Below the pieces are notes generated by a model. It was not told the DNA's origin and ran no database searches. It was given only the letters and a program-made list of their open reading frames with translations. From a virus: a DNA stretch of 64,000 bases. A program made the position numbers and the translations under genes. Where the stretch lies: positions 19,247 through 83,246 of the IMG/VR virus record IMGVR_UViG_3300032236_000879; one strand, 5' to 3'. Position 1 is the first letter of the stretch. Each line of letters starts with the position of its first letter. Shown here piece by piece: positions 5,830 to 57,207 of this stretch.

Positions 5830-5830
5830 G

Positions 5831-22400: not shown

Positions 22401-25400
22401 AGAATAGAATCTTTGTTCGAGGACAAAAGACTGCTGAATGGAACGGAACGGTCAATGCTTGGGGATTCATTCTAAATCAGACTGATATTCACGAATTCAA
22501 TTCTTTCACGAAATATACTAAGGGTGAGATTGTAAAATACAAAAATAAGTATTGGACTTCATTAACCATCATTGAACCATCCGGCGTCTTTGATGAGACA
22601 AAGTGGAAGCAGATCAATTACAGCAAGATTCAGCAAGGAATGTTTGCTAACCCAAGCACTCGTGCATATGAAAGCACGTTGTATTATGATGCACAGAAGG
22701 CTAATCTACACCAAGATGCTGATTTGTTATCCTTCTCATTGATCGGCTATCGTCCGCGTGATTATCTCGCACTCATTGACTTGACTGATACTGCACAAGT
22801 TCAAGTCTACAAGAACATGATTAGAAATAAAGGTACGCTCAATGCATTGAATGCATTCAAGGGAGCTAACCTTCCACAGGGCGGAATTCAGTACGACATT
22901 TATGAGAACTGGTCTATTCTAACAGGCACATACGGCGGTGTGCTAAATGAAAATTTTGTAGATTTCAGGCTTCAACAAGCAGACATGACAGGTGATCCTG
23001 CAATTGTCAGCCTAACCAACGGTAACGGTACAGCAGGAACGATGCAAGAAGTGTCGATATATGATCTATACAACTATGGCACGGAGATCACTTCACCTGA
23101 CATTCTTAGTACTACAACAGCAACACCTACACAGATTCTATATCCTAGTGCAGGATACGTCAACTTCAATGATGTCAAGATGTCAACATATTTCTATTCG
23201 GGATTGCCTACCGCAACAGATATAAATGGCAAGATCATTCCTATTCAGAATTTCTATGTCGGTGAATTCATCTGGATGGCAAACTTCAAAGAGAAGTGGG
23301 GCGTCTTTAGATGGAAGCCTATCGGTCAAGTAACCCAGGTCAGAAATAATCAAAACCAAACAGCAACAGTCACGTTCAACACTCCGCACGGATTGAGCAA
23401 GTTAGATCCAATGGCAATCATCAACTTTGCTACATCGGTTGACGGGTACTATATCGTGACTGACGTTGTTAATTTATATGAAGTCATCATTAATCTATCA
23501 ATCGTTGGTGCTAATCAGACAACTGTTCAAGGGCGTGGGCTGGGCTTCGCATTCGAATCACAGCGTGTTGCGACTCCAAGTGAGATTGAAACACTTAATT
23601 TAACTGAGAATGAATTCATCAAGAACCTAGTGTGGGTAGATGAAAATAATGACGGTGGTTGGGCAGTCTATGAGAAGAGCATCAATTACCTATATCAAAA
23701 TCAATTACAGCTTCCAGAATCTACTACATATGGTTCCGCAGTCGCATACACTGATACATCAGGATATCTCGTAGGGGATGCGGGCGCTAACCGTGTTTAT
23801 CGATATTCTTATAACAATGTATCCGGTCAATCGACACTCACTCAAACTGTTGTACCATACGGTGGATCCATTGCTACCTCATTCGGATCAAATATCGCAT
23901 ATGCTAAGAATATCTATGTGATCGGTGCTAATGGTCCAGGTGAAGATGACATTGGTAATTTTATCTATGTAATAAATGATAGCATCATTTCAACTGATAT
24001 GCTAAAATATCAGAATGATTACATCTATGCGTCAGCCGCTGACATCGCAATGTCAGATGATGCTAATTGGCTATATGTGTCTGATATTGCAAATGGGCTT
24101 GTTTTAGCATATCGCAGAGATAACATCACATTTAATGCAGGGTATTTCACTTCAGGTGAAACTTACATTATCGATAGTTTAGGCACTACTGATTTTACTG
24201 CTATTGGTGCTATACAAAACAAAGTTGGAATTGCATTTATTGCAACTGGTCCTGGTACAGGAACAGGTGTCGCAACACAAGCATCATACAAGCTAGCGCA
24301 CATCATCAACTGTGCTGATTTGGGACTGACTGCTGATAGTAAATTCGGTAATTCTCTATCAACCAACTATGATGGTAGTGTTCTGATGATAGGTGCTCCT
24401 GATGTAGCTGATACTAGTCCGGTTCTTGCTAACTGGGGTGCGGCATATGTTTATCAGCGAGCAGTACAAACATTTGAAGCTCAGTATTCGAGCGTTCCTT
24501 ATCAACCGTTCGCATTTAATCTAGCCTGGACACCCCAGACAAACACATTCCTTCCTCCGCAGACATTGACTTCGACTACTGTTATTGGAAATTACATTTA
24601 TGTTAATGATGCAACTTATCTTAGAATAAACATGCCTGTCATGTTCATCGCTGGAAGTGCAGGTGCTGGATTAAATAATAGCGGAATCAATCCATACGTC
24701 ACTTATTATATTGCAGATATTATAGAAAACACAATTGCATTAAAGACCTCACGTTCAACTAGCACTATTGTTAGCTTGATTGATGGTACAATCACATGCA
24801 CTATGTATCCGCAATATGATGTGAACGGAAGCACTAGGGTTTATGTTTCTGTTAACGGCAAAGTGGTTCAAGATAACAACTATGCATTAGCCGGAAGTAC
24901 TCTGTACTATACAGGTAATTTACAAGTAGGTGACATTGTTAACGTTAGTGGTACTGATTTCTTTATGGCGCAAGAATTTAATTCTGAGTACAACAATAGA
25001 CCTGATGTATATTTTGGTACTTCTGTTGCAGTCACAAAGTATGGATCAACTGTTCTTGTAGGTTCACCGTATGAAATCGATACAGACGGTAAAGAAGGTG
25101 CAGTATATAGTTATACAAACGGCGGTGCAAAATATGGTCTAGTGATCGGTACATCACCTTGTAATATCACATCTGCTAGAACATTATTAATTAATGGGTT
25201 TGCAGTATACTTACCTATCGGAAATGCCGCTGTAGTGGCAAATGCGATAAATGGTTCAAATATTAATAATATACAAGCAGCCGCAACTGCTGATAATAAG
25301 ATCATGATTCAGCTTATTAATAGTTCTCTGGCAGGAGTTGATAACAAATTGTTATTGACAACATTTGACAGTAATCTATTTGGTGAGCTGGGTGTGGAAC

Positions 25401-28400
25401 TATTTACTAATACTCAGATTATCAAGTGCCCGCATCAATTTGGTCCAACTGAGTTCGGGTACAAAGTAAAAACAAATCATGCAAATAGTATCGTAATCTC
25501 TGCTCCTGTTGGTACACGATATGAAGGTACAGTATTTGATTTTACAGATGACAATAATCTAGACAATGATACTGTGTTCGATAATAATGCGACTCAGTTT
25601 GTAGATACTTATCCAAATGCCGGTGCAGTATATATGTTTGAGTATCTCTCAAATTATAATGAAAATCTGGCAAATCCTGGAACATGGACTTACGCACAAA
25701 GCACAAATGATATCTCAACTGATTATGGATATAATCCTCAATACGGTGCAGCACTAGATTTCAATCAATATAATGTGATGATAGGTTCTCCGAACTTCCA
25801 ACCATATACTCTTGGTGGAGAAGTCATCGTTTATAATAATGCTACAGGCGCGAATGACTGGACAGTCTATAGACAGAGTGCACCTGTTGTAGATATCAAC
25901 AAGGTTCAGAATACACAACTGTATAGTGCTTCTACTAATAACACACTCACCAATCTTGACTACATCGATCCTCTGCAAAATAAACTTCTAGGTGCTGCTC
26001 GTGAGAATCTCGACTTTGTGACAGGAGTAGATCCTGCTGTTTATAATGTGAGCTATAACGCAGAAGCTGGCCCAGTCTGGGGAGCACCTCAAGTGGGTAA
26101 GCTATGGTTTGATACAGCAAACGTGAGATGGGTGAACTATCATCAGAATGATGTAGTATACAATAGCAAATATTGGGGAGAAGTATTCCCTGGATCAGAC
26201 GTTGCAGTCTATAGTTGGATCGCTAGCTTCATTCCGCCTCAGAACTACCAAGGACCCGGCGTTCCGTATGATGTGAATCAATTTGTCGTCAACAATACAA
26301 TGAACTCATCAAACGTTGTTGTTCCTGTTTATTATTTCTGGGTACGTAACACTAATGTAATTTTCAGCAAGACAGGTAAAACGTTATCTGATTCTGTCGT
26401 TCAGAATTACATTTCTAATCCTCGTACTTCCGGTATTCCATTCATGGCTCCGGTATTACCGAACACATTCTCTATCTATAATTCAGGTAATTTCTTCAAT
26501 GCAGATGACACGGTGTTCCATATTGGATTTGCGAATGGATCGTCACAGGATATCGTTCACAACGAATACTCATTGATCAGAGAAAATTTTGCAGATGATT
26601 TCTTGCCTGGATTCCCTAATACAAATAATGCACACAATGAATCAGGAGTTCACGGTGATATCGGAAAAGAATATATCTACGGTGCACCATCGTCGCTATA
26701 CGCTAAGATGATCGACTCTCTTGCAGGATGTACTCCTGCAGGAAATATCGTACCTGATCCATTCTTACCTTTGGCAGTTCAATCAGGTGTTCTAGTTCGC
26801 CCAAGCCAGAGCTTCTTCTATGATAGATTTGCGGCATTAGATAATTACTTGTCATATGCCAACAGCGTATTGATCAATTATCCAATCTTTGAATTACGTG
26901 AAGAACTCTCGTTCTTGTTCACATCCGGAACTTATTTTAATACTCCGGATTATTGGAGCTATGTTGATTGGTGGGCTACCGGTTATAATAATAGCACAAA
27001 GGCATCAGTGCAAGTAGCAGTGTATGCTGATCTATCCACATTGAATGTTCCGGTTGGTACTATCGCAAAAGTAAATCAAAATGGTGCAGGCAAGTGGGAA
27101 GTATATATTCAATCATACACCAATATTTGGACAAGAATTGGATTACAGAACGGAACACTTCAGTTCAGCAGTTCTCTCTGGGATTACTCGGCTGGTAAGT
27201 TAGGTTGGTCAGGAAACTTCTTTGACACAACTCCGTTTGATCTCTATCCTAGTGAAGAAACCCGAAGCATCGTTCGTGCATTGAACGAACAGATTTATAT
27301 TGGTGATCTATTGATTCATAGAAACAAGAGCTTGATCTTGCTATTTGAATACATTCAATCTGAAACAATTGAATCTCAGAATTTCTTACCTTGGTTAAAC
27401 AAGACTTCATTGGTTGATGTTGCTCACACCATCCGTGAACTGCTTCCTTATGAAGTATATAAAACAGATGATCAAGTATTCTTATCTGGATATGTCAATG
27501 AAGCCAAACCATATCGTGTTGTCATTAAGGACTTCTTATTCAAATATACAAAAACTGATGTATTTGAAGGTGACATAACTGACTTTGATCTTCCTGCAAT
27601 CTACGATTCAGTAAATCAACAATTCGTATCACCACAGTTAATCTATACAACCGATACTAGCAGCGATTATGAATTTAATACTACTAGTCAAATCTGGCAG
27701 AATGTAAACTATTCTCAGTGGTTCCAACACTACGGTCTATCAGTAACTGGACAACCTGAGTTCCCGATCACAATTTTAAGTTCATATCTAAATCGTAGAT
27801 CAACTTATATTATTGTAGATAATGCACACGGTTTCCCAACTAACGGTATCATAACAATTGGAACAGAACAGATCAGCTATTCATATGTTGATCGTGCCCT
27901 TAATATCATAGGTGGACTGACTAGAGGGGTGAATCAAACTACTCCAGTAGATCATATTCCAGGAGAACAAATCATCATTGATCTTCCTGCTGTGATACTA
28001 TTGGATGGGGGCCGTGGTTATGCTAATCCGCCTAAAGTGACAGCGGTATTCGATACTACAAAATATCCTGCTCCTAGAGAAGATGCGACATTTGAAGCAG
28101 TATTAGGAAATGGTTCTGTCGTTCAGATCAATGTCACTAATCCAGGGAGTGGATATGCAGTTCTACCTGATCTAGTAATCGAACCTGCATTGACTGTCTA
28201 TTTTGATAACACAAACATCAATTCAAGATTCCATACAATTAACGTGTATGCACCTGCACTACAAACAGGCGATCTAATTCAATATAGACCTGGAACAGGC
28301 GCTGGTGCCGGAAGACTCGCAGATGGGCAGTGGTATTATATCAACGTCCTAGAAACTAGCACGATTTCTGTCATCGGATTGTATACGACTTATAGCAATG

Positions 28401-31400
28401 CAATCAACGATCAGGATAGAGTAACAATATTCGATAATGGAACAGCCGCAGGGATGTCATTGAATCTAGGTGCCAAAGCATCTATCATTACTTCTTCTGC
28501 ACCTGTTAGAGAAAATATTGTTACACTACGTTTTGATAGAACCTCATATGGATCAAAGATTCAAGATTGGCAAGCCGATTCGTTCTATGGTGCTTATTTC
28601 GCAGGTAGCTATTATAGCGTAGATACAACATCATCTAGTTCTCCGCTTCTATTAGAAAACACAAATCCTGATATTAATACGATTACTGCTTCTGCCGATG
28701 GTGTGACGTTTGAAATTACTAGTGTTTCAAATGAAGAGCAAACCACATGGTCATCTTACACTCGATCGGTGGGTAGCACGATTGCTGCAAATAATGCTAT
28801 CAGACTCATTCCTCAAGATGGGAACAACAATCCATTAGGGGCTGAACCTAATGCATCGGGTACGACAATTGGATTCTATGTAGGAATGCCAATCAAGTTC
28901 CACGGAACTGTCATCGGTGGAATAGTACAGGATCAAGTTTATTATGTTGCACAGGTATTGAATGAGATTGATTTTACTATCTCTGCAATATCAGGTGGAT
29001 CAGTTGTCAGTTTGACAAATTCTACTGCTAATTATCCACTCTATTGCTACACAGGTGAAGTAGTCGATACTGCGCTCATCAATGTAAACTATCCAGGCAT
29101 ATTAACTGCTACTGCAACTTCAGCCAGTAACAATGCGATCACTGTTCCATTGACAGCAATAGGTACAGGCGGTACTAATGGATTCTATCCAGGATTGACT
29201 GTATTTTTTACCGGCACTGATTCACAGTTTACTGCATTTGGAAATGCGATCACTGCAAATGAAGTCTATTATGTTAACACAATAATCGATGAACAAACAT
29301 TCACTATTTCTGAATTCAAGAATCCTACATTTACGAATGTGCTGCATAATGTTACAGAAAATAACACAGTTTACCCTATCACTGCTAATGTAACACAGAC
29401 TATTGGTTCAACCGATATAGTTGTTGTAGATTCTACGCAAGACTTTAATCTACATGATCCTGTGATCTTTAATTCAATGGTTGTCTCTGGGAACCCAGTA
29501 ACAACATTCGGTGGAATCGTTTCGGGAACAGTGTACTACGTAAGTCAAATTGTCAACGGTACTGAAATGAAGATTTCCCAGACATCGACTGGGGTAACAT
29601 ATAATCTATCAGATCAAACAGGTACAGCGATTGCTACTAACCAAAGTAACGTAGTTCAGCTTACAACTGCCACTGGTCAATTGACCCTTAATGTTGCATT
29701 GCCAGTAAGCCCGGGACAAGTCAATGGACAAAAATTAAAGTTCTATCAAACATCAACCCAGTTTACTGGAATAAACACAGGTGTTATTAGCAACCTAATC
29801 AAAACAAGTGTTGATGCTACTATTGGTACTGTAAACAAGATTGCAGTTGGAACAACAACTAATTTCTATACTAATATGCCTGTGCAGTTTGAGGTTGCAA
29901 CAGGTGGGTTGCTTACAGGAACAACTTACTATGTCATAGATTATACAGGCAATGGTGGCATTACTCCTACATTACAGGTTGTTGTTTCAGCTACTTCTTC
30001 GACTGGAAATAAATTGATCTGTAAGTCTGGAACTAATACTGGTGACTTATATGTAAATATGCCATTGATATTCTCCGGTACCGGACTCGGAGGAATCATC
30101 ATCGGTGAAGTATACTACGTCAAAAGTGTAGTAGATAGCACACACTTCACGGTCTCGCTATCTCCGGGCGGAGCTACATTAACTTTAGCAAATGACTCAG
30201 GGTACATGTTAGGTACCGGGGATTCTTATATCACTGTTTCACTCACACCCGGTGGTTCTCTCGTATCATTGTCTACTAGCACAACCGCTTCAACATTAGA
30301 TCAGATTGTCACTGCTACTCCTACATTTGATATTTCTTATATACTCGGTGGATATAGAGCAATCATTGCAAACGGCGGAACAGGTTTTGCAGTAGATAAC
30401 GTGATCACTATTAGTGGTACTGCGGTCGGCGGAGTATCCCCTGCAAATGATATTATAATAACAGTTGCTGCGGTTGACACAAATGGTGCAATAACCAGTA
30501 TATCTCTTGCAGGTAATCCGCCCGACATTGAGTTGAGTTATTATGTGAAAGTAGTTTCTGCAACAGGATTAGAACTCTACCAAGATTCACTTTTATCTAT
30601 TCCAGTAAACGGTAAGACATTACCATATACAGGATTTACAAGTGCTAATGTAACTCAAACAAGTAGCACCGGAAATATTATTACAGTATCAAGTTCTACT
30701 GCATTCAGTATAAATGATGAAGTCATTTTTACTGGAAACGTGATCGGTAATATCGTATTAGGTCAACCTTACTACGTGATCTCAAAGCCATCATCAACAC
30801 AGATCAGAGTATCACAATTGCCAAATGGTTCACCGTTCAATCCAGGCAATGCAACAGGATCATGCTTAGTGACGAAGCCAGGAAGCTTTGCATATCTACC
30901 TGAACCATTCTACTTCCAACCATCTATCATCAGATACAATAACAGGCTATATGAATGCTTAGTATCAAATAATGATCCTGAGTTCGTGTTCGGTAAATGG
31001 CAATTGATTGATTCGGGTGCTCGCAATATCAATGCAATGGACAGAGTCATTGGTTACTATCAACCAACTGCAAATATGCCAGGCAAAGATTTAACACAAT
31101 TGTTCGAGGGCGTTTCATATCCAAACCCAATCTATTATGGTAATGCTTTCCAACCATCACAGCAATTCGAGCTAGATACATTATTACAAGATCAACCATT
31201 CTACCCTACCGGAGTTCAACTTACTTCAGTCGTATACAATAACGGTGAATACTATGCTGCATCAAATCTAACAGATTATTCAGCAGTATTGTATAGTACA
31301 GACAACGTAAATTGGGCATTGACTAAATTGAGTAGCGTGAATGTACACACAACTGATATCATTTATCACAATAGTGTCTATGTGATGACTTCGAATAATT

Positions 31401-34400
31401 CTGCAACACCTATCTTTAGAAGTAGCAATGGAATCGATTGGAGCACTAACGGATACTTCACTCCTTGGGGAGCAGACGGTTGGTCTGATTTCAACTATGA
31501 TATGACTTCACTGAATGTTGCTGCACTTGCATTAAACAGTGTAACGACATTTAATAACTTCTGGTTTGCAGCAGGTGATAGTATCGTGTCTAGCAATGAC
31601 ACATATGTCTGGGGCAAGGTACATTCTTATCCTTCTGCAAACGCAGTGACACTATATAGCATTGCTTCTGTTTCGATTCCTAATTTTACAGGATTGATTG
31701 CAGTAGGTAAAGGGTTGAGACTCGACTATTCTACTGGAACAACTCAGCTAGTCCCTACAGATATTATCTCAACTAGTACAGACGGGTTGATCTGGCAAGA
31801 CCTTGCCTCGCTCACTGATAAAACATTCCGCGCAGTGGCAGCTAATACAAACAGAATCACTGTTGTTGGTGACAGCGGAGTTATCTACTACTCTACTGAT
31901 GGAATAAACTTCTTAGGATTGAATGAAGCAACAGTAACTAACGTAGATGACGCGAATAACATTCTATCGTTAACCAACACTGCTGGGCTGACCGTAGGGG
32001 ATACTATTAGATTCACTACTGCATTTTCATCTATTCTAGCAGGAACAACATATTTTGTCAAGAGCATCATCAGCCCGACAAGAATAACAATTTCTGCTAC
32101 ATTAGGCGGTGCCACTAAAACATTGACTCCTTATGCTATCAATAGTCAAATCATCGCATATAAGTATGATCCAGCTAATCCAAATCCGAATGCATTGTAC
32201 AATATCATCTATGCTAATGATCTCTGGGTAGCAATCGGTGCTGCAGGAACAATCAAGACTTCTTCAGATGGTATGTCATGGACTGTACGTTCATCAGGTA
32301 CAACACATAATCTGAACGGTATTATTTGGTCAGGTACAGAATTCACAGTAGTAGGTGATAACAATACAGTAATAACTTCTACTGATGGCATCACTTGGTC
32401 GGGCTCAACGATATTCAGTGTCTTGCCTTCAACATATGATGTCAAGGGAGCAGATTTCCAATACGGATATGCACCGGAAGAACTCGTTGCAGGAAATGTT
32501 CGTGATGATCTAGCGATGACAGTAGTCACCCGTCCCGGAACAAACTGGGATGCAGCAGAATATTCAAACGTTGGATATAATGTTATATCTATTGAGGTTG
32601 CACCGAAAACACAAACACAAACTATCTATAACTTTGATCGTATTGTTCAAGTTCCAGTACAGGTATCAGTACAAGTACTAGATGCATCTACTATGTTAGG
32701 AACAACACTATCACCGACTCAGTATAGTGTAGACTGGGTGAACAAAAATATCATCCTAAACTCTCCTATCTCATTCACTCCTGACATGCAGAAGTTGAGG
32801 ATTGATATATATGAAGTTGGAAATGGGGAACAGCTAGTAAAAGCAAGTACACATAATGATCCGATCAGAACTAACGTAGATACCGGATTTAACGAGATTT
32901 ACTTAAATTGTAATTACAGTGCTAACATCTTTAATGGTAGTGGTGTGATCAAACCCGGTTCATTTGATCTAACAGTGACTGCTGTTGCAACAGATAGCAT
33001 TACCAATTCAATAACGTGCGATGATGTATCCCAGTTTTCAATTGGACAAGCGGTGACATTTACAGGGGTGGTATTTGGAAACCTACAAACCAATACCACT
33101 TATTACATCAAATCAATCAGTATGATAACTGAATCTATCACAGTATCATTATCATATGATCCTATTACAGGAATCGCAGGACCTACTACAAACTTGACCA
33201 CCGATACAGGAACAATGTCTGTTAACCTAGCATACGGTTCAGATATTCCTTGGACTACTCCTTATGTAGTTCACAATGGAACTAGACTTGTTCAAGGTTA
33301 CTCAAGTCAAGTGACAGGAACGTCTTCTATAACCAATACCGTCATCACTAATTCTACTGCTGGTATGACTGTAGGAATGCCAGTAACATTCAGTAAGAGT
33401 GTGTTTGGTGTGCTTTCTCCTATAACAAGATACTACGTAGCATCAATCATAGATAATAATAATTTCACTGTTTCTGCAACTCCTAATGGATCAACAGTGA
33501 CCCTTACTGATGCAGCAGGTGCAGCATATTATATCACTAATGATTTCGCATTTGGGTTACAGCCAAACAAAATTCAAGCAACACTCATATTTGCAACTGA
33601 TACATATACTCGTGCAAATGATTATATTGCTTACTCTGTGTTCGGGGAATCTGAACCAGCAGAATACGGATATACTGTTCCGGAAAGACAAGAATTTGTA
33701 GCGAACGGAACTACAGTAGCATTCACCTTAGGTAACTATGTCGGTGGTGATAACCCAACAAATGCAATCGTAGAGATCAACGGGATTCGTCAATCGTCAT
33801 CCAAATACACTATTAGCTTTGGTACTAATAGTGTTATATTTGCAACACCTCCTGCAAATGGTGCGATTGTCGCAGTCACGAGCTACAATGTCACTGATCG
33901 TCAATATCTAAATAGCCAATACGGTATCACAGGTAATGTTGGAAGTGCATTTGCTACTTTTGTGGTAGGACAAACTAACAACGTGACCGGAACATGGGAT
34001 CAAAATTCACCGTCCGCGCAGACATGGGATGAGAATTCTCCTTCAATTATCTCGTGGGATGAGCAACAAAATTGGTTGACATTAAGTTCAGGTACTACAG
34101 GAGTATTGCACGTAAACGATCCTATCATCTTTAGTGCTCCTACTATCGGTGGACTCGTTGCCGGACAAACATACTATGTGACTCAGATTCTTGACACAAG
34201 TAATTTTGTGATTTCTGCTACATTGGGTGGTCCGGCAGTCGTATTAACTAACGATACCGGATCAATGACTGCAAATGCGAATGCGTTGATCGTTGCTCAG
34301 ATCACTAACATAAACAATAACATTACATCTCCTATTGCAGATACAGTTGCTACTGCTACAGCGACCGGAACTAATAGAATAACAGTACTAAGCACGAGCG

Positions 34401-35920
34401 GATTTATCGCAGGTGCTACTGTTCAGTTCCGTGGTACTTCTTTCGGTGGACTTGCAACTGATGGTACTATCTATTTTGTGGGAACAATAGTTGATGGAAC
34501 ACACTTTACTATCGTTGATTCTACTAACACAACTGTTCCGCTCTCAAATGCTACTGGAACAGTAGAAGTTATCGTCGGTGGTCAGCCTGCAGTACGTGTC
34601 ATAACTGCAATTCAAACTGGATTCGCAACTAACACCTTAATAAGAATCGATGGAACTCAAGGTTCTACTCAATTGAACAACAATACATATTATGTAAGAG
34701 TGATTGATCCGTATACATTTGATCTTTATACCCAACCGTTCACTGCGGCATTGAATGGTGTTAATTATCCGGTAACTAATGTCTCAAATTATGTGTCTGG
34801 TGGATTCATATGGAGACAGGGAACATTCTATCTGATCGACACATATGCAACCGCAACTACAGCAGCTAACGGACGTATCACTGTAGCTTCGACAGCAAAG
34901 TTAGTATACGGCACTCCGGTATACTTTACCCAATCTGGATATCAGAACGGACAGACTTTGATGGGAAATCTTGTTCAGGGAACAGAATACTATGTACGTG
35001 ATATAATTGATGCTACACATTTTACGGTTTCATCAACTAGAGGTGGCCCGATAACAACAGTCACCACTGACACTGGATATATCAATGTTACACAGTGGGA
35101 ACAGGGTAATGTTGACCGTCTATGGGTAACAGTCAATGGTTATCGCGTACCTTCTTCTAAGCTAAAGCTCAATGCAGTGAATGAAGTCAGCATCTTGACT
35201 ACTATTAATCCAGGCGATGAAGTTGTGATGACCAGCATGATTCCTAATGCTACACCAAATCAAGAAATCTACTTGAACTTTGTTGATGTGTATGGTGCGG
35301 GATCAGTATATAGAGCAGGTGCTGAAACTAGAACTTGGTTGACGCAAACCTTAGGCATTCTAGATACAGTCATGTACGTCAATGATGTTACTTCTTTAAC
35401 AAAAGAAATAATACAAAATGTAACTGCTCCGACAGAAGTAAACGGATACTATAACATTGGATTAACCGTAGATAAGAGAATTCTTACTGGGGTTACAGTA
35501 CTCAACCATACAAAAAATCTGTATATCAATAGCAGCTATGTGAACGTGATACTTGTAGATTCTTCTCCTATAGTGCAGATCACTGCAGGCTCTTGGATCA
35601 ACACAGGTGATCTACTCACCGTTATCACACTTGAAGGTAATACAGTATTCATGAACGGTGAACAGATCAGATTTAGTAGCGTAGATTTTGTGACTAATAC
35701 ATTGAGTGGACTAGAGCGAGGCGCGAATGGCACGGGTGCACAACTCATAATTCCGCAATATACTGAAGTATATGGATTGTTAGATTCGGACAGATTGACT
35801 GATGTTGAATATCATCAAGTCTGGAATTCATATGTATATAACACAGTAGATGGTGACCCTCTACAGATTAGTCAGACTGTTTCTGCTACATTCTTAAGTG
35901 CTAGTGAGTATCCTGAATGA
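16418..35920 (+). CDS. 6,500-residue giant virion structural protein of the baseplate/tail
   Basis: A single uninterrupted frame of 19.5 kb, directly after gp6, where T4 has gp7 and gp8. The N-terminal ~140 residues (RIRTLNFLPEVFQTPPNAQF, then YSWDSFTNLDPLINFNQYYW) match a module I recognise from virion proteins of large T4-like phages. Visible domains by residue: Tyr/Asn-rich beta structure to ~2430; FG-GAP-like propeller blades ~2435-3143 (such as FGTSVAVTKYGSTVLVGSP); short chitin-binding-like modules near 2025 and 4830; at least 14 copies of a ~70-90-residue module with a YYV core; six Asp-box repeats ~4950-5330 (STDGITW). No membrane segment or enzyme motif is evident. Assembly into the wedge or a fibre is inferred from the position and the N-terminus. 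It has no ribosome binding site. Confidence 0.85.
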   Translation: MARIRTLNFLPEVFQTPPNAQFLAATLDQLVNSPNVANVQGYVGSKFGTGVNATDAYVPEPTKARVDYQLDPAVVFTKPNETTANDFVTYPGILDAIKLAGGITDDNSKLFTSQFYSWDSFTNLDPLINFNQYYWLPDGPPAVTVAASTIFSKEAFVVTSNTNSYSIVREGSTTSNANPPITLLRGGTYTFAVNQNTRFWIQGAPGISGYSPTQPNQPVRDVYGVTNNGVETGFVTFEVPLKNAQDEFNFPNTVNVDVISTTSFDNINGQFVNSFAGIDGITSLLGLTVAFYNTPQEIAYISSYYGETSYDTNDPALVPPATLSIASCNTSAFTLASGNTSGLVVGGTVTFTGTVFGGVNPGQVYFINSIPSSNSFTIATSLNGPTLTLTAASGSMTANVNQGLYEDGYNANINTTFFTVTYIGDPTNPIIRLVPSGAIPSNTKIVPVYGVEWNNRPFYLDVANNLELIPYISAPLDVLYYQDGTDPNKVGTIHLIESNLNNTIDVDLQILGKKNYTAPNGVVFTNGLKVEFDGDVIPTSYLTGQYYVQGVGTAIELVNVETLVVPEKFSEGEYIAWDVTSWDIGNYDISLDIPVLADYIVIARNAISKNAWARSNRWFHIDVINATAKYNNDPTIVTTYATAANKAARPIIEFYPNLKLFDSGATGVNPVDFIDTTNTDALSTVPGSVAYYPDVQVYSTASATITASPTTPVSAGSFVVGNTYQISTYGTTTDWNAIAGTSYQNYAVGSRFVCVNAGSGNGFAVPLATSTTITVAASALNGTLADYMFIADSTGILPANSQITNISGTTTLTLTVTWAIPQNVVGASGVILYASDTTVNNYGLFPGARVIFAGDSDPNVRNKIYVSNFSVIAPSTTPTITLIVAEDGIIGPDTQTVITRGYTNAGLSYWFDGLYWNQAQQKVYLNQAPKFDVFDANGVSFGDSTVYPSTTFAGSKLFAYGLGTGTKDPVLGFPIRYSSVSNLGDISFDVSLNSDTFNYVYNSNPVTQKVNTGYVYNYTNAATYKRLLGWETAIAPSQQYQILEFNFVPGTTQTSNQFLCDIAPLAPLGPHETGWPRVKVYINNEYQDTNTYTYTTTDTTTTVILNTLPTVKTVIQILILSDQVSKAGYYQIPLNLSNNPFNTDLTVVNTGDIRTQYQDIFINSPIVTGTIFGTNNFRDCGDLVPYGTKIIQNSASLVLPGMSLRNPQYNLFNALQFNSNEYIKYKQLIVDTVQNTDYVQRYTPSQILDDAISQIAAAKSEVNAFFWSDMLPNQNSYISNTYVFNNDLDRSQYPLSHVYNFESANYNGVLVYLTRNIGGILAERQLITGVEYVISTDSPTLTITIPMLQGDNVTIKEYNQTYGSYVPNTPTKLGIYPKFIPGVVLDPNYTIPTYFIQGHDGSYTKLYGDYIPEANVLVDFRDQALLEFEQRVYNNLKLSTETPIKRYEVVPGFFRTSTYTWDQYLQIYSTQFLNWIGQNRIDYKTQYFSRVNEFTYNYTNSTSKVDNNPIVQGYWRGLYEYYYDTTTPNTTPWEMLGFEIMPDWWTSRYGPAPYTSDNGILWGDLEQGLVWNNGEPYINPLVARPGLSKIIPVDSNGNLLSPYKVIVGNYNPSTFNKDWKVGDDAPAELSYRRSSTYPFDLTRIFALTRPAEFYNLCVDLDHYKYNVEFNQYLVDDRSHLVPANIQVYGNGIAKTSYLNWIVDFEKQQGIDSTTELTTSLNNLDVRLVYRLAGYSDKSLLQFYVEKPSPSSTNASLLIPNESYAILLYDNQAFDRIMFSGVIVQQNDSYWTVYGNSQTNAYFQILDPNFNGNWTTLTTENISVKVAQSYSTNVSLVPYGTKFYSTQDLAQFLISYGKYLESKGMVFDAIENGIHVTWQQMVYEYLYWVQTGWSIGSIITLNPAATTMDINQPSAIVQPLTIQQQNFVLNQNLYPIKLNDLCINRDGTLLHMHTLNAGDTMAYAQFNLSNFEHGIVFDNYTLFNDTIYNLITGLYQNRIFVRGQKTAEWNGTVNAWGFILNQTDIHEFNSFTKYTKGEIVKYKNKYWTSLTIIEPSGVFDETKWKQINYSKIQQGMFANPSTRAYESTLYYDAQKANLHQDADLLSFSLIGYRPRDYLALIDLTDTAQVQVYKNMIRNKGTLNALNAFKGANLPQGGIQYDIYENWSILTGTYGGVLNENFVDFRLQQADMTGDPAIVSLTNGNGTAGTMQEVSIYDLYNYGTEITSPDILSTTTATPTQILYPSAGYVNFNDVKMSTYFYSGLPTATDINGKIIPIQNFYVGEFIWMANFKEKWGVFRWKPIGQVTQVRNNQNQTATVTFNTPHGLSKLDPMAIINFATSVDGYYIVTDVVNLYEVIINLSIVGANQTTVQGRGLGFAFESQRVATPSEIETLNLTENEFIKNLVWVDENNDGGWAVYEKSINYLYQNQLQLPESTTYGSAVAYTDTSGYLVGDAGANRVYRYSYNNVSGQSTLTQTVVPYGGSIATSFGSNIAYAKNIYVIGANGPGEDDIGNFIYVINDSIISTDMLKYQNDYIYASAADIAMSDDANWLYVSDIANGLVLAYRRDNITFNAGYFTSGETYIIDSLGTTDFTAIGAIQNKVGIAFIATGPGTGTGVATQASYKLAHIINCADLGLTADSKFGNSLSTNYDGSVLMIGAPDVADTSPVLANWGAAYVYQRAVQTFEAQYSSVPYQPFAFNLAWTPQTNTFLPPQTLTSTTVIGNYIYVNDATYLRINMPVMFIAGSAGAGLNNSGINPYVTYYIADIIENTIALKTSRSTSTIVSLIDGTITCTMYPQYDVNGSTRVYVSVNGKVVQDNNYALAGSTLYYTGNLQVGDIVNVSGTDFFMAQEFNSEYNNRPDVYFGTSVAVTKYGSTVLVGSPYEIDTDGKEGAVYSYTNGGAKYGLVIGTSPCNITSARTLLINGFAVYLPIGNAAVVANAINGSNINNIQAAATADNKIMIQLINSSLAGVDNKLLLTTFDSNLFGELGVELFTNTQIIKCPHQFGPTEFGYKVKTNHANSIVISAPVGTRYEGTVFDFTDDNNLDNDTVFDNNATQFVDTYPNAGAVYMFEYLSNYNENLANPGTWTYAQSTNDISTDYGYNPQYGAALDFNQYNVMIGSPNFQPYTLGGEVIVYNNATGANDWTVYRQSAPVVDINKVQNTQLYSASTNNTLTNLDYIDPLQNKLLGAARENLDFVTGVDPAVYNVSYNAEAGPVWGAPQVGKLWFDTANVRWVNYHQNDVVYNSKYWGEVFPGSDVAVYSWIASFIPPQNYQGPGVPYDVNQFVVNNTMNSSNVVVPVYYFWVRNTNVIFSKTGKTLSDSVVQNYISNPRTSGIPFMAPVLPNTFSIYNSGNFFNADDTVFHIGFANGSSQDIVHNEYSLIRENFADDFLPGFPNTNNAHNESGVHGDIGKEYIYGAPSSLYAKMIDSLAGCTPAGNIVPDPFLPLAVQSGVLVRPSQSFFYDRFAALDNYLSYANSVLINYPIFELREELSFLFTSGTYFNTPDYWSYVDWWATGYNNSTKASVQVAVYADLSTLNVPVGTIAKVNQNGAGKWEVYIQSYTNIWTRIGLQNGTLQFSSSLWDYSAGKLGWSGNFFDTTPFDLYPSEETRSIVRALNEQIYIGDLLIHRNKSLILLFEYIQSETIESQNFLPWLNKTSLVDVAHTIRELLPYEVYKTDDQVFLSGYVNEAKPYRVVIKDFLFKYTKTDVFEGDITDFDLPAIYDSVNQQFVSPQLIYTTDTSSDYEFNTTSQIWQNVNYSQWFQHYGLSVTGQPEFPITILSSYLNRRSTYIIVDNAHGFPTNGIITIGTEQISYSYVDRALNIIGGLTRGVNQTTPVDHIPGEQIIIDLPAVILLDGGRGYANPPKVTAVFDTTKYPAPREDATFEAVLGNGSVVQINVTNPGSGYAVLPDLVIEPALTVYFDNTNINSRFHTINVYAPALQTGDLIQYRPGTGAGAGRLADGQWYYINVLETSTISVIGLYTTYSNAINDQDRVTIFDNGTAAGMSLNLGAKASIITSSAPVRENIVTLRFDRTSYGSKIQDWQADSFYGAYFAGSYYSVDTTSSSSPLLLENTNPDINTITASADGVTFEITSVSNEEQTTWSSYTRSVGSTIAANNAIRLIPQDGNNNPLGAEPNASGTTIGFYVGMPIKFHGTVIGGIVQDQVYYVAQVLNEIDFTISAISGGSVVSLTNSTANYPLYCYTGEVVDTALINVNYPGILTATATSASNNAITVPLTAIGTGGTNGFYPGLTVFFTGTDSQFTAFGNAITANEVYYVNTIIDEQTFTISEFKNPTFTNVLHNVTENNTVYPITANVTQTIGSTDIVVVDSTQDFNLHDPVIFNSMVVSGNPVTTFGGIVSGTVYYVSQIVNGTEMKISQTSTGVTYNLSDQTGTAIATNQSNVVQLTTATGQLTLNVALPVSPGQVNGQKLKFYQTSTQFTGINTGVISNLIKTSVDATIGTVNKIAVGTTTNFYTNMPVQFEVATGGLLTGTTYYVIDYTGNGGITPTLQVVVSATSSTGNKLICKSGTNTGDLYVNMPLIFSGTGLGGIIIGEVYYVKSVVDSTHFTVSLSPGGATLTLANDSGYMLGTGDSYITVSLTPGGSLVSLSTSTTASTLDQIVTATPTFDISYILGGYRAIIANGGTGFAVDNVITISGTAVGGVSPANDIIITVAAVDTNGAITSISLAGNPPDIELSYYVKVVSATGLELYQDSLLSIPVNGKTLPYTGFTSANVTQTSSTGNIITVSSSTAFSINDEVIFTGNVIGNIVLGQPYYVISKPSSTQIRVSQLPNGSPFNPGNATGSCLVTKPGSFAYLPEPFYFQPSIIRYNNRLYECLVSNNDPEFVFGKWQLIDSGARNINAMDRVIGYYQPTANMPGKDLTQLFEGVSYPNPIYYGNAFQPSQQFELDTLLQDQPFYPTGVQLTSVVYNNGEYYAASNLTDYSAVLYSTDNVNWALTKLSSVNVHTTDIIYHNSVYVMTSNNSATPIFRSSNGIDWSTNGYFTPWGADGWSDFNYDMTSLNVAALALNSVTTFNNFWFAAGDSIVSSNDTYVWGKVHSYPSANAVTLYSIASVSIPNFTGLIAVGKGLRLDYSTGTTQLVPTDIISTSTDGLIWQDLASLTDKTFRAVAANTNRITVVGDSGVIYYSTDGINFLGLNEATVTNVDDANNILSLTNTAGLTVGDTIRFTTAFSSILAGTTYFVKSIISPTRITISATLGGATKTLTPYAINSQIIAYKYDPANPNPNALYNIIYANDLWVAIGAAGTIKTSSDGMSWTVRSSGTTHNLNGIIWSGTEFTVVGDNNTVITSTDGITWSGSTIFSVLPSTYDVKGADFQYGYAPEELVAGNVRDDLAMTVVTRPGTNWDAAEYSNVGYNVISIEVAPKTQTQTIYNFDRIVQVPVQVSVQVLDASTMLGTTLSPTQYSVDWVNKNIILNSPISFTPDMQKLRIDIYEVGNGEQLVKASTHNDPIRTNVDTGFNEIYLNCNYSANIFNGSGVIKPGSFDLTVTAVATDSITNSITCDDVSQFSIGQAVTFTGVVFGNLQTNTTYYIKSISMITESITVSLSYDPITGIAGPTTNLTTDTGTMSVNLAYGSDIPWTTPYVVHNGTRLVQGYSSQVTGTSSITNTVITNSTAGMTVGMPVTFSKSVFGVLSPITRYYVASIIDNNNFTVSATPNGSTVTLTDAAGAAYYITNDFAFGLQPNKIQATLIFATDTYTRANDYIAYSVFGESEPAEYGYTVPERQEFVANGTTVAFTLGNYVGGDNPTNAIVEINGIRQSSSKYTISFGTNSVIFATPPANGAIVAVTSYNVTDRQYLNSQYGITGNVGSAFATFVVGQTNNVTGTWDQNSPSAQTWDENSPSIISWDEQQNWLTLSSGTTGVLHVNDPIIFSAPTIGGLVAGQTYYVTQILDTSNFVISATLGGPAVVLTNDTGSMTANANALIVAQITNINNNITSPIADTVATATATGTNRITVLSTSGFIAGATVQFRGTSFGGLATDGTIYFVGTIVDGTHFTIVDSTNTTVPLSNATGTVEVIVGGQPAVRVITAIQTGFATNTLIRIDGTQGSTQLNNNTYYVRVIDPYTFDLYTQPFTAALNGVNYPVTNVSNYVSGGFIWRQGTFYLIDTYATATTAANGRITVASTAKLVYGTPVYFTQSGYQNGQTLMGNLVQGTEYYVRDIIDATHFTVSSTRGGPITTVTTDTGYINVTQWEQGNVDRLWVTVNGYRVPSSKLKLNAVNEVSILTTINPGDEVVMTSMIPNATPNQEIYLNFVDVYGAGSVYRAGAETRTWLTQTLGILDTVMYVNDVTSLTKEIIQNVTAPTEVNGYYNIGLTVDKRILTGVTVLNHTKNLYINSSYVNVILVDSSPIVQITAGSWINTGDLLTVITLEGNTVFMNGEQIRFSSVDFVTNTLSGLERGANGTGAQLIIPQYTEVYGLLDSDRLTDVEYHQVWNSYVYNTVDGDPLQISQTVSATFLSASEYPE
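23720..25845 (+). other. FG-GAP-like beta-propeller region inside the giant protein
   Basis: Six FG-GAP-type blades can be read: YGSAVAYTDTSGYLVGD, FGSNIAYAKNIYVIGANG, FGNSLSTNYDGSVLMIGAP, FGTSVAVTKYGSTVLVGSP, FGYKVKTNHANSIVISAP and YGAALDFNQYNVMIGSPN, each followed by a GxxYxY-type strand. Integrin alpha chains and many adhesins use this fold. One YYV-type module is inserted between blades at about 24560. Confidence 0.7.
31200..32420 (+). other. Asp-box (BNR-like) propeller region inside the giant protein
   Basis: Six Asp-box motifs of the S-x-D/N-G-x-x-W type are visible: YSTDNVNW, RSSNGIDW, STDGLIW, STDGINF, SSDGMSW and STDGITW, spaced by strands such as AVAANTNRITVVGDSG. Sialidases and Ycf48-like propellers carry these; no sialidase active-site arginine triad was identified. 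A YYV module interrupts the series at about 31920. Confidence 0.7.
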
Positions 35921-35926
35921 TAAATA
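35919..35926 (+). promoter_or_regulatory. late promoter octamer before the tagged-protein cluster
   Basis: GATAAATA overlaps the stop codon of the giant gene. The predicted start near 35932 leaves about 36 nt of leader before the ATG at 35968. Confidence 0.65.
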
Positions 35927-35967
35927 AAAGAACACATTCTTTGAATGTTTAATTGGAAACGGAATAC

Positions 35968-36720
35968 ATGAGTAATTCAGACGACTTTAGAAAATTGATG
36001 ACTCTCCTAGAGTCGATTGAACAGGGAAATCAATCCCAGCAGCTGGATGAGATTTTTGGTATTCCTGATCTTCCGGATTGGGTTCCTGGCAGTAAAGCAA
36101 ATAAAAAAATGAAAGCTGATGAAAAAGCTAGTGAAGAAAAATATAAGAAAGAATCCGAAGAAGTTGATCGTGTTTGGGATAATATTAAGGCAAGAAGCCA
36201 ATCTATTCCGGTGTGGATGTATTTCTTTTGGCAGCCAAGCCAAACAATGGATTCATTAAAAGAAGTTGCTCAAACGACTGGAATCTTAGAACCTTTTTTT
36301 GTTGATGCTAGTTATGACCCGGTTAAAGGAACAGGCAAAGCTTCAAATCCGAATGCTGATGCATCAGGAATAATAGGTTCAATGTTGGCGGGTATGTTAG
36401 CAGTAGGGATAGTACCATCTAGTTATCTTGTATACCAAGGTAAAATATTGAAAAGTCCCTTAACAGGTCATAGAGCTATTGTTCATAGTCCGGGTATGTT
36501 TCCCGGTATGAGTGATTTCGGCAATCTTGATCATCCGGATACTGCAAGTTCAAAAAATAAGATAATCGATATTGTAAAACGTTGGACAGGACGGGGCGGG
36601 CCTCCTAATGGCGGCGGTGAAAGAACAACTGAACCTCAAAAAACTACTGTTGCACCTCCGGGCGGACAAGGAAGCAACGTGATTCCCCTTAGACCGGTAG
36701 CTAATAGAAGAGCAGCATAA
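35968..36720 (+). CDS. putative capsid-packaged protein 1 with N-terminal tag
   Basis: 250 residues from ATG 35968; a TTG five codons upstream also opens the frame but has no better signal. The N-terminus, NSDDFRKLMTLLESIEQ followed by QQLDEIFG, is shared with the next two genes. The L-x-E element (LDE) resembles the T4 gp21 prohead protease site. The core (~70-200) contains SIPVWMYFF, then SSYLVYQGKIL, HRAIVHSPG and KIIDIVKRW, aligning with the third gene of the cluster, so the two are paralogues. The tail is Gly/Pro/Thr-rich. I recognise no enzymatic family. Delivery into the capsid and then the host is an inference from the tag. Confidence 0.7.
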   Translation: MSNSDDFRKLMTLLESIEQGNQSQQLDEIFGIPDLPDWVPGSKANKKMKADEKASEEKYKKESEEVDRVWDNIKARSQSIPVWMYFFWQPSQTMDSLKEVAQTTGILEPFFVDASYDPVKGTGKASNPNADASGIIGSMLAGMLAVGIVPSSYLVYQGKILKSPLTGHRAIVHSPGMFPGMSDFGNLDHPDTASSKNKIIDIVKRWTGRGGPPNGGGERTTEPQKTTVAPPGGQGSNVIPLRPVANRRAA

Positions 36721-36730
36721 AGGACAACAA

Positions 36731-37168
36731 ATGAACTCAGACGACTTTAGAAAAATGATGACTCTACTGGAGTCAATTGAAACCCCGACACATCAGATAG
36801 ATGAAGGCAAAGAACATCATGATGTATCATCAGGTAAATGGGCTGCTAGCGTTCCTGAAGGTCAGAAAGCACTCAATACTGCTTCAAACATAGTTTATAA
36901 TAAACCGTTTGAACAACTTGACCCAGCTATTCGAAAAGTATTAGTTGCTGCTATAACTGCTGCTGCTACAGTAGAAGAATGGTGGAAAACTGATTGGTTG
37001 GGAAACATTAAGGAACATTACTCACAGTTTATGTGTCCTAAACCCGAAGATGTCATCAATCGTCTTCGTTCTGAATACCCTGAAATCATTACAGACAACA
37101 AACTTAATTCCGCAGTTAAACAAACCGTTAAAGAGTGGCGTAAATATCACCGCACCGCGGCTCAATAA
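36731..37168 (+). CDS. putative capsid-packaged protein 2 with N-terminal tag
   Basis: 145 residues. The N-terminus NSDDFRKMMTLLESIE followed by HQIDEGKE repeats the tag of its neighbours; I-D-E before G fits the T4 prohead protease preference (I/L-x-E, cut before G or A) best of the three. The rest (~30-145) is unrelated to the neighbours, with an Ala-rich helix (KVLVAAITAAATVEEWW) and a basic C-terminus. AAGGA lies 6 nt before the ATG, 10 nt after the upstream stop. No known family recognised. Confidence 0.7.
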   Translation: MNSDDFRKMMTLLESIETPTHQIDEGKEHHDVSSGKWAASVPEGQKALNTASNIVYNKPFEQLDPAIRKVLVAAITAAATVEEWWKTDWLGNIKEHYSQFMCPKPEDVINRLRSEYPEIITDNKLNSAVKQTVKEWRKYHRTAAQ

Positions 37169-37204
37169 ATCTTTATACACAAATAATGAAAAAAGCAGAT
37201 AAAA

Positions 37205-38014
37205 ATGAACTCAAATGACTTTAGAAAAATGATGACTCTACTAGAGTCGATTGAGCAAGGGCGCCCAACACACCAATTAGATGAGATTTTTGGTATATTT
37301 GGTCGTGGGGATAAGCAGGGACAACTAGCAGACGAAATCAAGAAAACTGAAATCATACTAAATTCAGCCATACAAGCTAAAGAACTTTGGGAAAAGCTTG
37401 AAGGAGAAAGCCAATCTGCTCCGATCTGGTTATACTTCACAACAGATCAACACACTTCCCCCGGTGTAGTAAGTAATATACGAAGAGCCGCTGCTATCAG
37501 TAAATTTAATACCTTTTTCGGAGAGTATTCATTCGCTGACACACCATATCAACAGACTGATCTTAGAATAAATCTTGAACGTTGGGATAATATAGCTCAA
37601 CCGTATGATCTTGAATACGGAGGGAATGGATTTTATTATGGTAATGCTGTAAAGTTAATACAAGTTTATAAGTGTTATAACTTTAACTTTCCTACTAGTT
37701 CTATTCTATACAAAGGAAAGGTTATAGAAAGCGGTAATTATTCTGGAGCAGGTAAGACTACGTTTGTTCATACACCTAAAGCTACTGCTAGTGGTAACCT
37801 TCAGGATGAGAATTGGAGAGATAATCCAGACTCTGGACACTCTTTTGAAAGAATAGTTGATATTGTGAAACAGTATTGTAATTGGGAAGACGGTCATTCT
37901 ATTGGTTCCTTCCCACCAGAAGGTGTATCGTTAGCCCCTGATGGTAACGGATTGGATTGGGGAATCAATCACTTTAGCGAAAAACTAGATGAACTTAGAA
38001 AGCAGCGTAGATGA
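37205..38014 (+). CDS. putative capsid-packaged protein 3 with N-terminal tag
   Basis: 269 residues. The tag is NSNDFRKMMTLLESIEQ followed by HQLDEIFG. The body shares with the first gene of the cluster the line SAPIWLYF, then SSILYKGKVIESG, KTTFVHTPK and RIVDIVKQY, so it arose by duplication. Between these lies a Tyr/Asn-rich insert (NGFYYGNAVKLIQVYKCYNF). The stop codon overlaps the next ATG (ATGA). Function unknown; the shared core could be an enzyme fold that I cannot place. Confidence 0.7.
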   Translation: MNSNDFRKMMTLLESIEQGRPTHQLDEIFGIFGRGDKQGQLADEIKKTEIILNSAIQAKELWEKLEGESQSAPIWLYFTTDQHTSPGVVSNIRRAAAISKFNTFFGEYSFADTPYQQTDLRINLERWDNIAQPYDLEYGGNGFYYGNAVKLIQVYKCYNFNFPTSSILYKGKVIESGNYSGAGKTTFVHTPKATASGNLQDENWRDNPDSGHSFERIVDIVKQYCNWEDGHSIGSFPPEGVSLAPDGNGLDWGINHFSEKLDELRKQRR

Positions 38015-38145
38015 AATCGAATAATAAGAACAAAGTCACTCCTAGAAAACCGGATGAGGTAGGTGGAATTTATTTTTCTTCTGCTATAAAGATTTTTGAT
38101 CCAAAGACAGGTGAGATAATTTTACATAAAAGAGGAGACGGATAA
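38011..38145 (+). CDS. small hypothetical protein, 44 aa
   Basis: ATG overlaps the preceding stop (ATGA), and the stop codon abuts the next ATG (TAAATG). This tight packing on both sides argues that it is translated. The sequence has a basic N-terminus (KSNNKNKVTPRKP) and a beta-like second half (GGIYFSSAIKIFDPKTGEI). No family recognised. Confidence 0.6.
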   Translation: MKSNNKNKVTPRKPDEVGGIYFSSAIKIFDPKTGEIILHKRGDG

Positions 38146-38424
38146 ATGCCAAACATTTATCTGACCGAAAACCTATTTAATAAGGCATTTGGAATATTAC
38201 CATGGCGATATATAGGTAGTGAAAAAAATAATAATGCATTAGTATGGACATTGACTACGCCGAACGGTGATATTATAACAGTATCCGGACTTCGTCATTG
38301 GGCAAAGAGTAACGGACATAAGTATCAAGATATATATAATAGCAAGAACGGATGGAATGCGGTAAAGCATGGCTCTGGTCGCGGCGGCGGAAGAAAGAAA
38401 AAGGAACATAACAGTGGAATTTAA
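38146..38424 (+). CDS. small DNA-binding-like protein, 92 aa
   Basis: A 92-residue basic protein behind GAGGAG. The pattern TTPNGDIITVSGLRHWAKSN followed by GHKYQDIYNSKNGW resembles the short NUMOD-like helix-turn-helix element that accompanies phage homing endonucleases, with a very basic tail (GRGGGRKKKE). No nuclease catalytic motif is present. It may be a free-standing DNA-binding remnant of a mobile endonuclease or a small regulator. It overlaps the next gene by 11 nt. Confidence 0.55.
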   Translation: MPNIYLTENLFNKAFGILPWRYIGSEKNNNALVWTLTTPNGDIITVSGLRHWAKSNGHKYQDIYNSKNGWNAVKHGSGRGGGRKKKEHNSGI

Positions 38425-51958: not shown

Positions 51959-52188
51959 ACTCGTACGTGACAAGCATGGCCGTTTTCAATGCTATTGACG
52001 ACGGGTGGTCTATGATTGGTACGCACATGCCTACTAGCCAAAAGGTATATGCAGTCAGAAATGATATAGCCAGATGGATAGAAACACAACCACCTCACAT
52101 GTGGAAGTTTTATGATGTAGATAATATGCTGAATTGCTACCTGCTTAGTGAAGAATTACTATCATGGATGATATTGAAATGGCGATAG
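51925..52188 (+). CDS. hypothetical protein, 87 aa
   Basis: Starts inside the radical SAM gene in another frame; an alternative ATG at 51976 would avoid the overlap. Contains FNAIDDGWSMIGTHMP and HMWKFYDVDNMLNCYLL. No signal peptide and no family recognised. Its position suggests co-expression with the radical SAM enzyme. Confidence 0.5.
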   Translation: MSRNQYYQPSINSYVTSMAVFNAIDDGWSMIGTHMPTSQKVYAVRNDIARWIETQPPHMWKFYDVDNMLNCYLLSEELLSWMILKWR

Positions 52189-52221
52189 AGTTCTAGAAAC
52201 CTTTTGGCATCATTCAGCAGA

Positions 52222-52229
52222 ATTAAATA
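52222..52229 (+). promoter_or_regulatory. possible late promoter octamer
   Basis: ATTAAATA, two mismatches to TATAAATA, 25 nt before the ATG at 52255. Predicted start near 52235. Weaker than the others. Confidence 0.35.
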
Positions 52230-52254
52230 GATTTACAAATTTAGGAGAATAATC

Positions 52255-52524: not shown

Positions 52525-52576
52525 AACACAAATTGAAAAACCAGGAATAGATATTATCACACTGAAGTTCCATGTG

Positions 52577-52584: not shown

Positions 52585-52589
52585 AAAAC

Positions 52590-54495: not shown

Positions 54496-54496
54496 T

Positions 54497-57202: not shown

Positions 57203-57207
57203 TCAGC

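Follow-up and report, generated by a model that had tools for sequence, protein, structure and literature searches.

Short N-terminal peptides that direct proteins into a phage head have been described for T4. According to the passages on these proteins in three studies, the T4 protease gp21 cuts after L/I-X-E, and propeptides of 10-19 amino acids bring the internal proteins (IPs), which co-purify with gp22, to the core (PMC9026906); Ip1-3 are homologous only in their N-terminal leader and inhibit GmrSD type IV restriction enzymes once injected (PMC12373910); and IPIII that lacks its capsid-targeting sequence (CTS) is functional when made in the host (PMC9391042). A comparable case in the phiKZ-type phage SPN3US are the processed head paralogues gp53 and gp54, whose first 15 residues, MANFVKSKLARESVE, are identical and hold a protease site, as given in the part of the study that covers them (PMC5694885). 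S77 peptidases are found in groups 1 and 2 of a comparative jumbo-phage study, the relevant passages of which do not mention N-terminal tags (PMC7824862). We describe here three adjacent open reading frames (ORFs), A, B and C, with a common N-terminus, the tag. They lie in a viral DNA window of 64,000 nucleotides, bases 19247-83246 of the 83,246-bp IMG/VR record IMGVR_UViG_3300032236_000879; the other 19 kb of the record were also analysed, and positions refer to the window unless the record is named. We consider it likely, with a probability of roughly 0.7, that the tag serves as a capsid-targeting propeptide, equivalent in function to the T4 CTS but not a sequence homologue of it. The principle is known from T4, and this tag would be a new version of it. 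Passages of the open-access literature on capsid targeting, covering T4, SPN3US and P1, describe no tags of this kind in the 121Q/PA5oct group, which speaks only weakly for their absence there. Since the record covers just a fragment of a larger genome, further tagged genes may sit outside it; gene calling relied on a crude rule, the longest ORF from its first ATG, and all gene counts are therefore approximate.

ORFs A (35968-36720), B (36731-37168) and C (37205-38014), all on the plus strand, have in common an N-terminus of ~27 residues, (M)NS[DN]DFRK[LM]MTLLESIE...[LI]DE[IG]. A begins with the ATG at 35968 and reads MSNSDDFRKLMTLLESIEQGNQSQQLDE-I, B starts at 36731 and reads MNSDDFRKMMTLLESIETPTHQIDE-G, and C starts at 37205 and reads MNSNDFRKMMTLLESIEQGRPTHQLDE-I, where a terminal hyphen marks a candidate cut. 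Each tag holds two [LI]xE triplets: LLE at residues 13-15 and LDE at 26-28 in A, LLE at 12-14 and IDE at 23-25 in B, and LLE at 12-14 and LDE at 25-27 in C. All three have therefore two candidate cut sites, LLE-S and then LDE-I (A and C) or IDE-G (B), with a spacing of ten residues in A and C and of eight in B. Divided at these two putative S77 sites, the tag of A is MSNSDDFRKLMTLLE-SIEQGNQSQQLDE- (residues 1-28; 35968-36051), that of B MNSDDFRKMMTLLE-SIETPTHQIDE- (residues 1-25; 36731-36805) and that of C MNSNDFRKMMTLLE-SIEQGRPTHQLDE- (residues 1-27; 37205-37285). A preliminary description of this DNA had noticed three adjacent ORFs with a common N-terminus that is soon followed by LDE-I or IDE-G, and coordinates and translations bear this out; it had stressed the second site, which stands, while LLE adds another candidate site to each tag. 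Its statement that the first and third bodies are related and the second is not also agrees with the body comparison. A and C are paralogues along their full length (bodies E 9e-10, 23% identity), and the body of B matches neither (best E 1.5). The tag is thus a short N-terminal segment on proteins with unrelated mature parts, as a CTS is, and it carries the (L/I)-x-E site of prohead proteases inside and at its end, twice per tag, even though this motif is weak. The resemblance is well above background: among 1473 N-terminal pairs without body homology, drawn from the 55 called genes of the record, the tag pairs A-B and B-C score 76 and 74, the next pair scores 29 and the control with internal residues reaches a maximum of 31. 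Applied to the first 100 kb of T4, the test places ipII/ipIII (MKTYQEFIAE) on top with 54, with an internal control maximum of 43. The preliminary description had proposed to search the rest of the genome for the tag; in the 83,246-bp genome fragment no fourth copy was found.

Judged by its genes, the record is part of a jumbo T4-like phage. Its capsid protein has 67% identity to the capsid proteins of Vibrio phage 2.275.O and Pseudomonas phage PA5oct. At less than 60% identity, its baseplate-wedge and PHROG 11259 proteins match those of Atu_ph07, Phosso, GAP32, 121Q and RaK2, among others. The head genes lie outside the window. They comprise a Gp23-type capsid protein (record 2890-4086; Gp23 E 1.9e-97), a scaffold (record 4114-5256; labelled from its position and its relatives, the family being listed with unknown function in PHROGs), a Peptidase_S77 (gp21-family) prohead protease (record 5240-5878; E 1.2e-27) and a T4-type portal (record 7582-8913; E 8.6e-85). 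The combination expected for a CTS of the T4 kind, a gp23-type capsid protein together with an S77/gp21-type protease, is thus encoded in the record. A more specific link between the tag and the head comes from the tetrapeptide LLES. Within the first 25 residues it occurs in five of the 55 called genes of the record, namely capsid protein, scaffold, A, B and C, where 0.05 would be expected from its internal frequency. Among 1641 called genes of five relatives (G003, G011, G013, G017 and G018) it occurs nine times at this position, and all nine genes encode the capsid protein or the scaffold.

T4 offers a parallel to this link. In its first 100 kb, the starts of gp22 or gp23 have a 4-mer in common with three of 134 N-termini; ipII and ipIII are two of the three (IAEA, gp22). 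The T4 IP CTS and the tag are alike in being short N-terminal peptides with an (L/I)xE site on otherwise unrelated proteins, both phages have a gp23-type capsid protein and an S77/gp21-type protease, and the T4 CTS, too, has a tetrapeptide in common with the scaffold start. The tag differs from the T4 CTS in its sequence, its length (~27 versus 10 residues), its two candidate cut sites and the position of its cassette in the tail region, and its packaging and cleavage are predicted only. T4 gp24, which is cleaved by gp21 according to its record, starts with MAKINELLRES; two tags of relative G018 described below, MRINELLNES and MKINELLNES, are similar. The gp24 propeptide, a gp21 substrate by annotation, has an LLxES start like the kinase-group tags of the relatives and the LLES found here; unlike A, B and C as we read them, gp24 is a capsid shell protein and not cargo. 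Taken side by side, IAEA in the T4 IP leader and gp22 and INELLRES in gp24 suggest that leaders may copy head-core N-termini. The SPN3US proteins gp53 and gp54 are further away: as far as the published account goes, they belong to another phage group, have an AxE-type motif and carry propeptides of more than 100 residues, and their likeness to A, B and C is one seen by eye.

Tags that look like the T4 CTS are also found in the five relatives, where 37 of 1641 genes start with M[RK].{1,3}[EDQ][FILMV][ILVFM]xE, compared to 5 of 8145 internal methionines. In T4 the same pattern picks out ipII and ipIII (2/134 versus 0/580 internal), and the counts are 2/562 versus 2/2221 internal in phage CBB and 2/465 versus 1/1976 internal in 2.275.O. 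The 37 include two probable chance matches, G003 240727 (deformylase-like by eye) and G011 228818. Searches against Pfam with 23 of the 37 gave eight matches above the curated cut-off, to GH19 (three), amidoligase_2, GNAT, DUF6267 and DUF6321 (two). PHROG 15752, a family of phage protein kinases, is matched by a kinase-like protein of G018 (E 2.8e-14). Two G011 proteins resemble ADP-ribosyltransferases by eye only; they match nothing in Pfam, NCBIfam and PADLOC, and the one that was tried matches nothing in PHROGs and PDB sequences. The kinase-like genes start with M[RK]IxE[IL][IL]xES..LDEI[TS]RP and stand 0.9-2.2 kb downstream of the capsid gene in L209 (= G018), L210, L211 and the near-identical pair L213/L214; in G003 a look-alike stands 2.7 kb downstream. 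Not every tag is followed by a second [LI][DNT]E site, which occurs at 7 of 37 tagged starts, several of these seven being paralogues, compared to 42 of 1604 starts that lack a tag. Thus, the MR[AV]xEF[IL]xE and M[RK]IxE[IL][IL]xES..LDEI tags of the relatives combine a T4-CTS-like start and an [LI]xE site with varied bodies, in the kinase group with a second LDE-I site. They are known from sequence alone and can be aligned with the tag of A, B and C only in the LLxES...LDE pattern. The 37 tagged genes (L087-L099 and L102-L167 in G003, G011, G018, G013 and G017) make up a list of predicted head cargo. Several G013 proteins (L137-L154) have yet another common N-terminus, similar to MS[IV]T[IF][TS]GG...GG[GW], which is probably of fibre type.

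A look-alike of the tag itself is found in Vibrio phage 2.275.O. LL(x)ES is present among the first 25 residues in four of its 465 genes. Two of these encode the scaffold and the capsid protein, and the other two are small and lie 3.1 and 3.5 kb downstream of the capsid gene. The gene at 3.5 kb, NVP2275O_455, starts with MDFRETRMLLESIEAMGN. Its start MDFRETRMLLESIE ranks first of 2802 N-termini compared with the three tags (score 41, next 29.7), a score that none of the 18,855 internal windows of 2.275.O and G018 equals. None of 13,340 shuffled N-termini reached it; a larger test with 1,067,200 shuffles is reported below. NVP2275O_455 resembles the tag in its DFRxxxxLLESIE start and differs from A, B and C in its unrelated 118-amino-acid body and in having no LDE shortly after the start. 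The body has no other relative in the phage collection besides a chance-level match (E 10), and two exact-pattern scans found DFRxxxxLLESIE nowhere else in IMG/VR. The match is suggestive of the same kind of tag in a second phage, a reading that is strengthened by its closeness to the capsid gene.

The position of A, B and C fits late expression. The late-type promoter element GATAAATA (35919-35926, plus strand) overlaps the stop of the preceding giant gene 49 bp before the start of A, and it follows the giant gene in all eight relatives displayed. Of the 15 [TG]ATAAATA sites in the record, 11 precede a gene start by 15-80 bp, as would suit a T4-type late promoter; random placement gives a mean of 0.3 and, in 300 draws, never more than 3. 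We take this type of element to be the T4 late promoter motif. The record also contains a late sigma factor gene. With such an element upstream and such a sigma factor encoded, A, B and C probably belong to a late transcript. The giant gene is a single ORF of 6500 codons (16418-35920) behind the baseplate wedge gene. A 382-kDa virion protein of phAPEC6 is, by Table 1 of that study (PMC7247149), the product of the gene whose number follows the baseplate wedge (gp245); the ORF in the window would be far larger, if the two are equivalent.

A, B and C form an accessory cassette (35927-38010, plus strand). It is preceded by the giant gene and its late-type promoter and followed by ORF D, a 44-amino-acid frame (38011-38145, plus strand) at the downstream edge that overlaps the stop of C. 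In the loci of 80 relatives, retrieved via the downstream gene, the cassette is absent from this site without exception; in relatives ORF D follows directly after the giant gene (at least 20 matches). A-B-C is thus an insertion of ~2.1 kb that separates D from the giant gene. A comparison with 6234 ORFs, from the window and the fetched loci, found no relatives of A, B and C except themselves. The giant gene and the PHROG 11259 gene are 125-235 bp apart in 73 of the 80 relatives and 790-811 bp apart in the other seven (L006-L011 and L059, of which L007-L010 are near-duplicates), where the gap holds a GIY-YIG-like endonuclease gene. The endonuclease of L006 has 225 codons and matches the SegE family with E 2.1e-4, just under the Pfam cut-off. 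At the same site the window carries a remnant of a GIY-YIG (SegE-like) homing endonuclease (38146-38424) of 92 codons with a large internal deletion. Elsewhere in the window, a cluster at 50561-59545 with matches to radical SAM, methyltransferase, nucleotide-sugar epimerase and UDP-glucose dehydrogenase suggests glycan modification. L005 holds a tandem pair of long tape-measure-like genes (8948-12478 and 12494-16054), the C-terminal segment of one being lysozyme-like and that of the other peptidase-like by eye.

Behind the second site, the bodies would comprise 222 amino acids in A (36052-36720; computed isoelectric point (pI) 9.2), 120 in B (36806-37168; pI 8.7) and 242 in C (37286-38014; pI 5.4), all on the plus strand. 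None belongs to a family at E <0.001 in Pfam, PHROGs, NCBIfam or PADLOC, none matches PDB sequences, and no homologue of the mature domains of T4 IPI-III or Alt is among them. A and C have no Pfam match up to E 0.1, hence no LamG, Kelch or fibre-type binding domain, and the only two Pfam matches of B are at chance level (E 0.037 and 0.073), far below the cut-off, and neither is of a binding-domain kind. C has no homologue in the phage collection, and neither the A/C nor the B bodies have one in the records of the five relatives, CBB and 2.275.O. Scans of IMG/VR with C alone and with the A/C alignment gave no homologues either; these scans were prefiltered by pattern, so that distant relatives can escape. 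We set aside as chance a weak PADLOC match of B to HEC-03A (E 0.015), Mpp10 chains that match the A/C profile in PDB sequences (E 0.17 or more) and a weak match in relative G018 (L086) that lies inside a radical-SAM-like reading frame. Predicted structures have a mean pLDDT (predicted local distance difference test) of 37 for C and A and 45 for B, and the models are unusable.

Several observations weigh against a capsid-targeting function. LLES was picked after inspection of the data, and 40 of 1681 other N-termini have some 4-mer in common with the own capsid or scaffold start, or 43 of 1684 if A, B and C are counted, which puts the blind expectation near 2.4%; none of these 40, however, has LLES itself. 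T4 ipI has no 4-mer in common with the gp22 or gp23 starts. The tag has no recognisable similarity to the T4 CTS and is not homologous to it: the M[RK].{1,3}[EDQ]... pattern matches none of the 55 genes of the record (versus 2 of 434 internal positions), and no T4 protein is among the 12 best tag matches. Two or more [LI]xE triplets are present in the first 32 residues of 11 of the 55 genes of the record and of ~5-10% of genes in other genomes, and the bodies of A, B and C each hold one or two further ones. The body of C is acidic. The tag alignment found no homologue in IMG/VR, in a scan that confirms only stretches first matching short peptide patterns and can miss distant relatives, and pattern scans gave no other genuine instance; their sole match, L004, lies inside a polymerase-like ORF and is due to chance. 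As for NVP2275O_455, a match as good to tag A arose in 16 of 400 shuffled collections (16 of 1,067,200 shuffles), a family-wise P of ~0.04, a profile search of the 2.275.O genome found nothing, and a hidden Markov model of the tag gave NVP2275O_455 an E of 0.069, equal to that of an unrelated protein. Finally, A, B and C lie in the tail/fibre region, away from the head genes.

This last point also fits the main rival explanation, which we regard as unlikely, that the tag is an uncleaved N-terminal anchor fixing interchangeable proteins to the exterior of the virion (tail, baseplate or capsid fibres), since the three genes stand between a giant virion-type gene and a tail-fibre-type gene. There is a precedent in the related jumbo phage CBB, where a different common N-terminus, MLPF...Y[GA]N, sits on divergent bodies, some of them annotated as LamG or Kelch (L171-L189 and L208; 344368-355464). 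Seven of nine MLPF genes of this cluster (CBB_536, 537, 548, 549, 551, 552 and 553) are listed in the published virion mass spectrometry table (section 24 of PMC5259590), and two further MLPF genes elsewhere are unmatched to that table. Common N-termini thus do mark virion proteins in this phage group, and the CBB tag looks like an external anchor. Moreover, four of the nine CBB genes have an (L/I)xE triplet at residues 7-9, so that triplets alone do not separate an anchor from a CTS. However, the triplet is not conserved in CBB, while both sites are kept in A, B and C, and the tag has LLES in common with capsid protein and scaffold only. The bodies also differ: no binding domain of the LamG or Kelch kind was detected in A, B or C. 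The look-alike near the Vibrio capsid gene likewise speaks against an external anchor. Across the called genes of nine gene sets, including the record, MLPFxR[LM]xxY[GA]N-like starts are confined to CBB, and A, B and C are not of the MLPF type.

It seems improbable, too, that A, B and C arose from one gene by duplication and that their N-terminus is a conserved structural or regulatory segment, such as an oligomerisation helix, with no role in packaging. A and C are indeed adjacent full-length paralogues, and the models, though poor, put a helix over the tag. Yet the tag DNA of B is ~90% identical to that of A over 48 bp although its body is unrelated, and this suggests a transfer of the tag. 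Most codon differences within the 16 codons of the tag are synonymous (4 of 5 between A and B, 3 of 5 between A and C, 3 of 4 between B and C) although the A and C bodies are down to 23% identity, and LLES is otherwise confined to head-core N-termini. The similarity might also be one of DNA, copied by recombination within the cassette and without selection on the peptide, and the 80-90% identity of the tag DNA among the three genes as well as the decayed homing endonuclease beside the cassette could be read in this way. We consider this highly improbable and already disfavoured by the mostly synonymous differences and by the placement of the tag exactly at the start codon in all three genes.

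Capsid targeting therefore remains our preferred reading. The proposal of the preliminary description that the common N-terminus is a packaging and protease tag gains indirect support from several sides: the S77 protease and the Gp23 capsid protein, two candidate (L/I)xE sites per tag, LLES, the Vibrio match, the late-type promoter and the tags of the relatives. In this scheme A, B and C would be made late, and their tag would dock them on the assembling prohead core, perhaps by resembling the LLES segment of the scaffold and capsid N-termini. Enclosed in the head, they would be trimmed by the S77 protease after LLE-S, after (L/I)DE, or both, which would free the bodies inside the head. The freed bodies may then leave with the DNA as cargo and, in what is the weakest step, act against the host. 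Because of the T4 precedent, anti-defence or host take-over would be the likeliest class for the bodies, at no more than even odds; injection with the DNA and an anti-defence role had been put forward as possibilities in the preliminary description as well.

A broader view, which we put forward tentatively and hold to be less probable than not, is that T4-like phages build their cargo address by copying the assembly and protease segment that starts their own scaffold (and capsid protein), IAEA in T4 and LLxES in the 121Q/PA5oct/2.275.O kind of jumbo phage. Gaining this segment would suffice to make head cargo of any late gene, and A-B-C as well as the kinase-like, GH19 and possibly ADP-ribosyltransferase-like proteins of the relatives would be modular, fast-changing pre-loaded effectors, each lineage having an address of its own. 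If the capsid-targeting reading is true, laboratory phages could make use of a short tag with two cut sites as a packaging handle, and the N-terminus alone would list otherwise anonymous head-carried proteins of jumbo T4-like phages, which could be tested as injected effectors. Capsid targeting, which has been worked out in T4 and was proposed for the phiKZ-like SPN3US, would then cover a further large group of giant phages, and the address would seem to be copied from part of the scaffold.

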